From a virus: DNA of 64,000 nt. The notes below the pieces were generated by a model. That model was not told the DNA's origin and did not search any database. It saw only the letters and a list, made by a program, of their open reading frames with translations. Shown piece by piece: positions 3,116-7,982 of the stretch. The position numbers were made by a program, and so were the translations under genes. Numbering within the stretch: the first letter of the stretch is position 1; the number at the start of each line of letters is the position of its first letter. The stretch covers positions 1 through 64,000 of the IMG/VR virus record IMGVR_UViG_3300021962_000068. One strand, given 5' to 3'.

Positions 3116-3217
3116 GCCAGGGTTGCTAATGTTGGCCTGAGGGCGAGCCTTATAAACTCGTAAAGCACCGTCTAGATAAGGCGTGTAACGTGGGTTCGAT
3201 TCCCACCCCTGGTACCA
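3116..3217 (+). tRNA. Unusual long tRNA (102 nt, class II-like; anticodon probably TAT)
   Basis: GCCAGGG (3116-3122) pairs with CCCTGGT (3207-3213), including a G1-U72 pair. The T arm is perfect (GTGGG-TTCGATT-CCCAC), the discriminator is A and CCA is encoded at 3215-3217. The anticodon arm CGAGC-CTTATAA-ACTCG has one C-A mismatch and would present TAT (Ile, AUA). The D stem is short and weak. About 25 bases lie between the anticodon and T arms, with only a poor stem, longer than a normal class I variable loop. The G1-U72 pair and long variable arm recall tRNA-Leu, but no Leu anticodon is visible. Identity is uncertain. Confidence 0.6.
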
Positions 3218-6540: not shown

Positions 6541-6569
6541 TTGAAAACTTATTGAAATTATTATATAAT
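6541..6569 (+). promoter_or_regulatory. Phage promoter (TTGAAA-17-TATAAT)
   Basis: TTGAAA at 6541-6546 and TATAAT at 6564-6569 are 17 bases apart, preceded by AAATTTAAAC. It drives the genes at 6594-7329 and probably the tmRNA behind them. Confidence 0.8.
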
Positions 6570-6593
6570 ATTTCTTTAATCGACGAGAAAACC

Positions 6594-6866
6594 ATGAAAA
6601 TCGTTACATTTGACTATACTGATCTTAAAGGCAATTCAAGCTATCGTGAACTAGCAGTAGAACTAGAACCCACTGACAAGTTTTGTGGGTACGATATCGG
6701 CGAACTTGATGATGAACAAGTTGCACACTTTGTTAACGAGTATGATGAGTTACGAGAAGTATTTAGACAAAATGTTTTTAATTTAGCCAATAAATATGAA
6801 CTAAAATATAAGTATCGTACTTTCTTTGAGAAAAGTATGGCTAATCTTATTATTGAGGATATTTAA
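6594..6866 (+). CDS. Hypothetical protein (90 aa)
   Basis: I do not recognise this acidic alpha/beta protein. The frame is open from 6552, but the promoter -10 box lies inside that part. The ATG at 6594, after GACGAGAAAACC, is the likely start. It contains a DELREVFRQNVFNLANKYELKYKYRTFFE helix-rich C-terminal half. Confidence 0.65.
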   Translation: MKIVTFDYTDLKGNSSYRELAVELEPTDKFCGYDIGELDDEQVAHFVNEYDELREVFRQNVFNLANKYELKYKYRTFFEKSMANLIIEDI

Positions 6867-7329: not shown

Positions 7330-7331
7330 TC

Positions 7332-7464
7332 TGTGAGTCGGGGAGAGGCCTCTGCTGTGCCTCTCAAAGGTTGCTGGCGAGGCTGGTGGCGGCAGCTATT
7401 ATGATTGTATGAAGCGAACAGAAAAGTATTTTGGACGCGGGTTCGACTCCCGCCTGGTCCACCA
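7332..7464 (+). ncRNA. ssrA: Acceptor piece of a circularly permuted two-piece tmRNA
   Basis: This piece carries the 3' half of the tRNA-like domain and lies upstream of the tag-coding piece. The T arm is GCGGG-TTCGACT-CCCGC (7437-7453). The 3' acceptor strand is CTGGTCC (7454-7460), followed by discriminator A and encoded CCA (7461-7464). TATTTTG (7427-7433) pairs with CAAAGTA (7515-7521) of the coding piece to form helix P2. Further 5' are a perfect hairpin with arms GAGAGGC and GCCTCTC (about 7344-7366) and a GCTGGCG/CGGCAGC stem, which may be the pseudoknot region. The 5' end is not fixed by the sequence. A 31-base spacer (7465-7495), able to fold back on itself, separates it from the coding piece and would be cut out. 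Confidence 0.88.
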
Positions 7465-7495
7465 TAAACAAATATGCAAAATGTTTCTTTATGAT

Positions 7496-7664
7496 GGGCC
7501 AGTCATGGTTTCGACAAAGTAAATAGTAAGCAAGTAGACAATCCGGCGGGCGATGCCGTACTAACGCAAAAAACCATAAATGCCAATGATGAGGTATTTG
7601 CTTTAGCTGCTTAAAGCTAAGCTGAGGATTTTATCCATGTTCCTTATTACCCAAACATGGATAC
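7496..7664 (+). ncRNA. ssrA: Tag-coding piece of the permuted tmRNA (tag ANDEVFALAA)
   Basis: The piece begins GGGCCAG (7496-7502). This pairs with CTGGTCC of the acceptor piece over 7 bp, with a G3-U70 wobble, the alanine identity signal. Then follows TCATGGTTTCGAC, the conserved tmRNA D-loop region, and the P2 strand CAAAGTA. CGGC...GCCG near 7543-7558 may be part of PK1. The tag frame opens at GCC 7582 after CATAAAT and reads A-N-D-E-V-F-A-L-A-A, stop TAA 7612-7614. It has the ALAA degradation ending and the ten-residue length of many proteobacterial tags. The stop lies in a short hairpin, as in known tmRNAs. A perfect 10-bp hairpin (7632-7641 with 7654-7663) closes the piece. The exact 3' end is not known. 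Confidence 0.9.
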
Positions 7665-7680
7665 ATATAAAAATTTACTC

Positions 7681-7709
7681 TTGCTGAGTTAATTTCTTTA
7701 TGAGATAAT
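7681..7709 (+). promoter_or_regulatory. Phage promoter with nearly leaderless downstream gene
   Basis: TTGCTG at 7681-7686 and GATAAT at 7704-7709 are 17 bases apart, with AAAAATTTACTC upstream. The expected transcription start (about 7716) is within a few bases of the ATG at 7719. Confidence 0.7.
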
Positions 7710-7718
7710 ATTATTTCT

Positions 7719-7982
7719 ATGACACGAACAATCAAAAAATTTAAGCATTGGGAGCAAACACTAATTTATAGTACGCTCGAAAAAGCAATGCAAGTCAAGT
7801 TAGGTATACACGATATGTGTTTTACTAACAAATCAAATCCTAAAGATTTACCTCCTAGTATAGTACCAACTGAAGTATTATATGATATTTGTTCATGTTA
7901 TGAGGCTCTATTTGAAAAATTGCTAAAAAACGATCTGCTTGAAGCAGGATACCCTAAATCAAACCCAACTAATAAACACTAA
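7719..7982 (+). CDS. Hypothetical protein (87 aa)
   Basis: I do not recognise this protein. It has a basic N-terminus (TRTIKKFKHWEQTLIYSTLEKAM), then a proline- and cysteine-containing middle (LYDICSCYEALFEKLL). No ribosome site precedes the ATG because the promoter -10 box ends only 10 bases before it, so the message is probably leaderless or nearly so. Confidence 0.65.
   Translation: MTRTIKKFKHWEQTLIYSTLEKAMQVKLGIHDMCFTNKSNPKDLPPSIVPTEVLYDICSCYEALFEKLLKNDLLEAGYPKSNPTNKH

Follow-up and report, generated by a model that had tools for sequence, protein, structure and literature searches.

Phage tmRNAs, two-piece ones among them, are already known. Buchholz et al. (2022) reported 53 two-piece tmRNAs in phage genomes, 50 of which are aquatic (PMC9004378), the 2025 tmRNA database holds 79 bacteriophage sequences (PMC11915505), mycobacteriophage Bxz1 and its relatives are listed with tmRNA of the standard one-piece kind (PMC4131195), and huge phages encode both tmRNA and SmpB (PMC7162821). 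What is added here is a permuted tmRNA of betaproteobacterial type that occurs lineage-wide in T5-like phages. The first-pass annotation of this DNA had called a permuted tmRNA unusual in a lytic phage, a view contradicted by the 53 published phage cases and by scores of further viral contigs.

The stretch of DNA analysed (the window, 64,000 nucleotides) is the first 64 kb of a linear IMG/VR record of 80,737 bp. The terminase and polymerase of this record are 48% and 50% identical to those of T5-like Vibrio phages, and its capsid protein is 34-35% identical to those of T5-like Salmonella, Klebsiella and Aeromonas phages. The homologies of the terminase, the major capsid protein and the DNA polymerase all stay below 60% identity, and on these grounds the record is assigned to an uncultivated T5-like phage of bacteria. 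The 80.7-kb record has no integrase match and is probably incomplete, since its relatives are as long as 124-128 kb. It also has no SmpB match, so that, given the size of the relatives, SmpB would have to come from the host or from a stretch of the genome that lies outside the record. A phage-encoded SmpB partner, without a match on this record or in 49 of the 50 other phage records, was dropped as a candidate. As a separate observation, a record of 296,594 bp (G468) carries a permuted tmRNA (L282, tag ANDSSFRQAVAA) together with an SmpB gene (L376, E 7e-56). The host was sought through the exact acceptor/D-loop pattern in genome contigs, and this route was abandoned: the three betaproteobacterial matches, two of which were checked by reading, are not tmRNAs (none called by ARAGORN or Rfam), and the remaining matches are mostly from Lachnospiraceae records. 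Elsewhere in the window, at positions 3116-3214, lies an unusual tRNA-like gene of 99 nt, whose D-loop region is overlong and which shows no clear anticodon; it scores 34 bits in Rfam and is not called by ARAGORN.

Rfam covariance models and ARAGORN both place a complete circularly permuted tmRNA gene on the plus strand (Table 1), inside a gap at 7330-7718 between predicted genes. The gene had earlier been drawn from 7332 to 7664; that start took in the leader, the supported gene spanning about 7403-7664. The rest of the proposed layout was recovered, namely the 3′ tRNA half (T arm, acceptor strand, A73 and CCA) ahead of the 5′ half, the acceptor stem with its G3-U70 pair, both P2 strands and a tag ending in ALAA-stop. 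The mature 5′ end of the acceptor piece would lie at 7403, where the RF04321 match begins, and the 3′ end of the coding piece would lie at 7664. In the predicted fold, the acceptor stem is continued by the arms of the intervening segment, which gives a hairpin in the precursor, and by analogy the segment would be lost on processing. No sigma-70 promoter candidate above chance was found upstream of the tmRNA.

Table 1. Parts of the permuted tmRNA gene, in window coordinates.
Feature	Position	Strand	Basis
Acceptor piece	7403..7464	+	RF04321 match begins at 7403; ARAGORN structure
P2 3′ strand	7427-7433	+	ARAGORN structure
T arm	7437-7453	+	ARAGORN structure
3′ acceptor strand CTGGTCC	7454-7460	+	ARAGORN structure
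A73	7461	+	ARAGORN structure
CCA	7462-7464	+	ARAGORN structure
Intervening segment, 31 nt	7465..7495	+	Fold; arms covary in relatives
Coding piece	7496..7664	+	RF01850 and RF04321 matches; ARAGORN
5′ acceptor strand GGGCCAG	7496-7502	+	ARAGORN structure
D-loop with GGTTTCGA	7503-7514	+	ARAGORN structure
P2 5′ strand	7515-7521	+	ARAGORN structure
Pseudoknot-like stem	near 7543-7562	+	Model matches; ARAGORN
Tag frame ANDEVFALAA-stop	7582..7614	+	ARAGORN; third-position-biased change among relatives
P5-like terminal hairpin TATCCATGTT/AACATGGATA	7632..7663	+	MFE and centroid fold

The assignment to the permuted class is carried by full-length model matches. RF04321 (tmRNA_permuted) scores 133.4 bits against a cut-off of 47 (E 6.2e-26) over all of its 213 positions (1-213), and RF01850 (beta_tmRNA) is the best of the three permuted subtypes, with 126.1 bits against a cut-off of 84 (E 5.3e-38). 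The alpha tmRNA model reaches 55.1 bits; the cyanobacterial model, with 42.3 bits, and the standard-order model RF00023, which matches fragments only (29 bits), both remain under their cut-offs. ARAGORN independently calls the same permuted gene with the tag ANDEVFALAA. Given these E-values and the independent call, the match is no chance event. The gene also has the features of its class: swapped halves, the alanine identity pair G3-U70, A73, CCA and a tag frame closed by a stop. The phage-encoded permuted tmRNA proposed in the first pass is therefore confirmed as a real, intact two-piece tmRNA gene of betaproteobacterial type, its halves in the order that the permuted models require.

Relatives of the phage carry the same kind of gene. 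A permuted tmRNA scores above cut-off in 21 of the 50 viral records scanned, 49 of which were recruited by the DNA polymerase of the window and include 20 of the carriers. The remaining carrier (L104) was recruited through a tmRNA pattern and shares its record with L009, and four of the 21 are near-identical contigs, so the independent cases are fewer than 21. Many relatives gave no tmRNA match, and many of those are fragments. In the nearest relatives (L012, L015 and L021), the gene has the same neighbours on either side, namely homologues of the ORFs at 6552-6866 and 7719-7982. Among 15 distinct phage tmRNAs, standard pairs fill 98.6% of the pair cells of the tRNA-like domain, and two-sided changes occur in 12 of its 19 pairs; since the structure was taken from the ARAGORN fold, the first figure is favoured, the second much less exposed. 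None of 500 shuffles matched this pairing and covariation, slid structures gave 40-58%, and G3-U70 is unchanged in all 15. The arms of the intervening hairpin covary as well, with 109 of 120 cells paired (73 in shuffles) and 300 double changes (66 in shuffles). These arms lie beyond the CCA. At the sequence level, their covariation is direct evidence for both pieces being parts of one precursor, and it supports processing from a single precursor.

The tag has been kept as a coding sequence. Codon differences among relatives are synonymous in 238 cases and non-synonymous in 112, the third position accounts for 307 of 499 changes, and two relatives (L093 and L108) have an identical tag despite 7 and 3 synonymous codon changes. 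Taken together, the covarying stems, the invariant G3-U70, the synonymous tag change and the covarying joining hairpin argue for selection on structure, tag and single-precursor processing. Comparison of these sequences indicates that the permuted tmRNA is conserved across many related T5-like phages and that an entire lineage of uncultivated phages has long kept it under selection, so that it is no stray capture. A gene captured from a host and retained by chance, which the similar permuted genes of some betaproteobacterial genomes might suggest, is very unlikely: covariation, codon bias and a conserved place across diverged relatives already contradict it, and the record lacks an integrase match.

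Tag conservation also weakens the reading of the RNA as a decoy for SmpB and AlaRS, which would mainly compete with host tmRNA and so damp host trans-translation. A tag-less tmRNA-like RNA of mycobacteriophage DS6A, a tRNA-like domain alone, has been proposed as such an inhibitor (PMC4131195; PMC11915505), and the present record, too, is without a phage SmpB. A decoy, however, would need no tag, whereas here the mRNA-like domain is complete, with an intact tag frame that shows coding selection among relatives; we consider a decoy unlikely. Alternatively, the gene may serve not rescue but retagging, in which the phage tag replaces that of the host so that tagged proteins, of host or phage, are degraded for their amino acids or meet another fate, as put forward by Buchholz et al. 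for phage Melnitz (PMC9004378). Tags do vary between relatives, and some phage families have long conserved tag extensions, but ANDEVFALAA closely resembles tags sampled from bacteria, for instance ANDERFALAA. As the window tag is ordinary and keeps its LAA end, there is little sign of an altered fate, and this retagging is judged quite unlikely.

The reading preferred here, which we hold to be probable, is that of a functional phage-encoded permuted tmRNA that would be processed, charged and used to tag stalled products during infection. In this scheme, (i) a single precursor would fold so that the acceptor stem runs on into the intervening hairpin, a structure shown by the covariation, (ii) host tRNA-processing enzymes would excise the 31-nt segment, as in known permuted tmRNAs, (iii) the acceptor and coding pieces would then stay joined through the acceptor stem and P2, (iv) host AlaRS would charge the tmRNA with alanine through G3-U70, (v) host SmpB would deliver the charged tmRNA to ribosomes that have halted on broken mRNA and (vi) the ANDEVFALAA tag would free the ribosome and direct the unfinished protein to host proteases. 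The phage tmRNA would thus most likely serve the host SmpB during infection, and the suggestion that trans-translation is kept going in infected cells is compatible with the evidence.

The window copy shares up to 75% identity with other phage copies and at most 60% with the 14 Burkholderiales copies sampled. Its acceptor stem is GGGCCAG/CTGGTCC, whereas GGGGGTG/CACCTCC is found in most of the bacterial copies sampled. In a tree of about 154 columns, whose resolution does not reach the deep order, tests rejected neither a single clade for the phage copies nor distinct clades for phages and bacteria (AU p 0.61-0.75). With its nearest copies in phages and one phage clade not rejected, the window gene looks like a long-held phage gene. 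A phage source for the betaproteobacterial two-piece tmRNA was also considered when a first tree mixed phage and bacterial copies, but it was dropped, as that tree had poor support and separate clades are not rejected. A strong permuted match (>120 bits) was found in 16 of 399 Burkholderiales genomes sampled, at least one of which (L207) looks alphaproteobacterial; the permuted form is therefore a minority among Burkholderiales.

The search among other phages proposed in the first pass extends beyond the polymerase relatives, and its side finds are more novel than the window gene, which has neither an extended tag nor an ORF in its intervening segment. A search pattern that combines this acceptor type with a long intervening segment matches 68 viral contigs of up to 297 kb. 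In some of these tmRNAs a conserved insert brings the tag to about 24-32 residues, e.g. ANADTFDFSAMSFTGNTVRGAANESRFALAA. Codon change in this insert is of the coding type, with 82 synonymous and 123 non-synonymous differences in frame; the off-frame counts are 21/185 and 20/187. The extended-tag motif, a search that selects for the conserved letters themselves, matched 85 contigs; in the 80 that were read, every motif continues as a peptide whose last two residues ahead of the stop are AA. ARAGORN calls permuted tmRNAs in 73 extended-tag phage contigs, and an extended tag was found in none of the 399 Burkholderiales genomes, in a search run without a control. The form is about A(N/T)ADTFDFSAMSFTGNTV, then a variable linker and ..ALAA (L236, L240, L241, L246, L248, L259, L266, L271, L279, L104 and L302-L371). 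Other long tags that look unrelated, such as ATANTFEYFQVDFDVTAMNDEQFAIAA and AKTSTKDVVKVSMGRGFRFARGTEALAA, occur at L238, L276, L251, L291, L244 and L284.

In some other phages, a small ORF lies within the intervening segment, starting 11-15 nt past the CCA and in several cases with a Shine-Dalgarno-like AAGGA. Single cases are seldom matched by shuffles, and such ORFs occur in 13 of 46 distinct segments against 4.9 expected, nine of the 13 being one family and the search interval having been fixed after the first cases were seen. One conserved ORF, MKYTALCPxCFxRFxWVxxKGLTKHKCFSD, extends into the coding piece and has AAAAGGATA ahead of its ATG (L234, L238, L240, L241, L254, L265, L276, L279 and L291). 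In frame, its codons show 72 synonymous and 131 non-synonymous differences, compared with 19/211 and 30/202 off frame. At the same place, the 110-151-nt segments of the T5-like relatives L099, L101, L105 and L108 have differing ATG-started ORFs that stay open up to the segment end. For two segment ORFs, the only homologues found were those in the contigs used as queries and in a single 85% relative. It is possible, and put forward tentatively, that the same-acceptor phage tmRNAs form a virus-evolved class of rebuilt genes, in which the conserved tag insert TFDFSAMSFTGNTV adds a further fate for tagged proteins and the segment encodes small proteins. If so, the precursor RNA would act first as mRNA and later as tmRNA, and the window gene would belong to that class with a plain tag and a short segment. 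Such natural variants could reveal the use that phages make of ribosome rescue.

Among the known systems, the tmRNA of the Bxz1 type is phage-encoded, as is the window gene, but is a standard one-piece tmRNA that is not permuted. The permuted order is shared by Stenotrophomonas phages (Menderavirus), Xanthomonas phage X1 and Acinetobacter phage BUCT628, the bacteria of these three genera being gammaproteobacteria, which are known to have one-piece tmRNA. All three phage tmRNAs match tmRNA_permuted, two of them above the betaproteobacterial cut-off. They are 61-65% identical to the window gene and, unlike it, have the tags VAANDDSYTVRIAA, VAANDADYSVARYA and ANDNVFGAKTLAA; two tags at these loci (L119, L120 and L121) are without the usual LAA end. 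The OM43 phage Melnitz and the pelagimyophages resemble the window phage in that they, too, are aquatic phages with no known lysogeny genes and carry a permuted tmRNA. Melnitz, however, is a myophage whose ssrA was placed with Alphaproteobacteria and is tied to a glutamine riboswitch (PMC9004378), whereas the window gene is betaproteobacterial in type and belongs to a T5-like phage, no riboswitch having been found with Rfam. The closest likeness by Rfam subtype is to the betaproteobacterial tmRNA (RF01850/RF04321), which differs in its acceptor stem and is at most about 60% identical in the 14 Burkholderiales copies, but shares with the window gene the gene order, the G3-U70 tRNA-like domain, the conserved D-loop, the tag context and the P5 hairpin.
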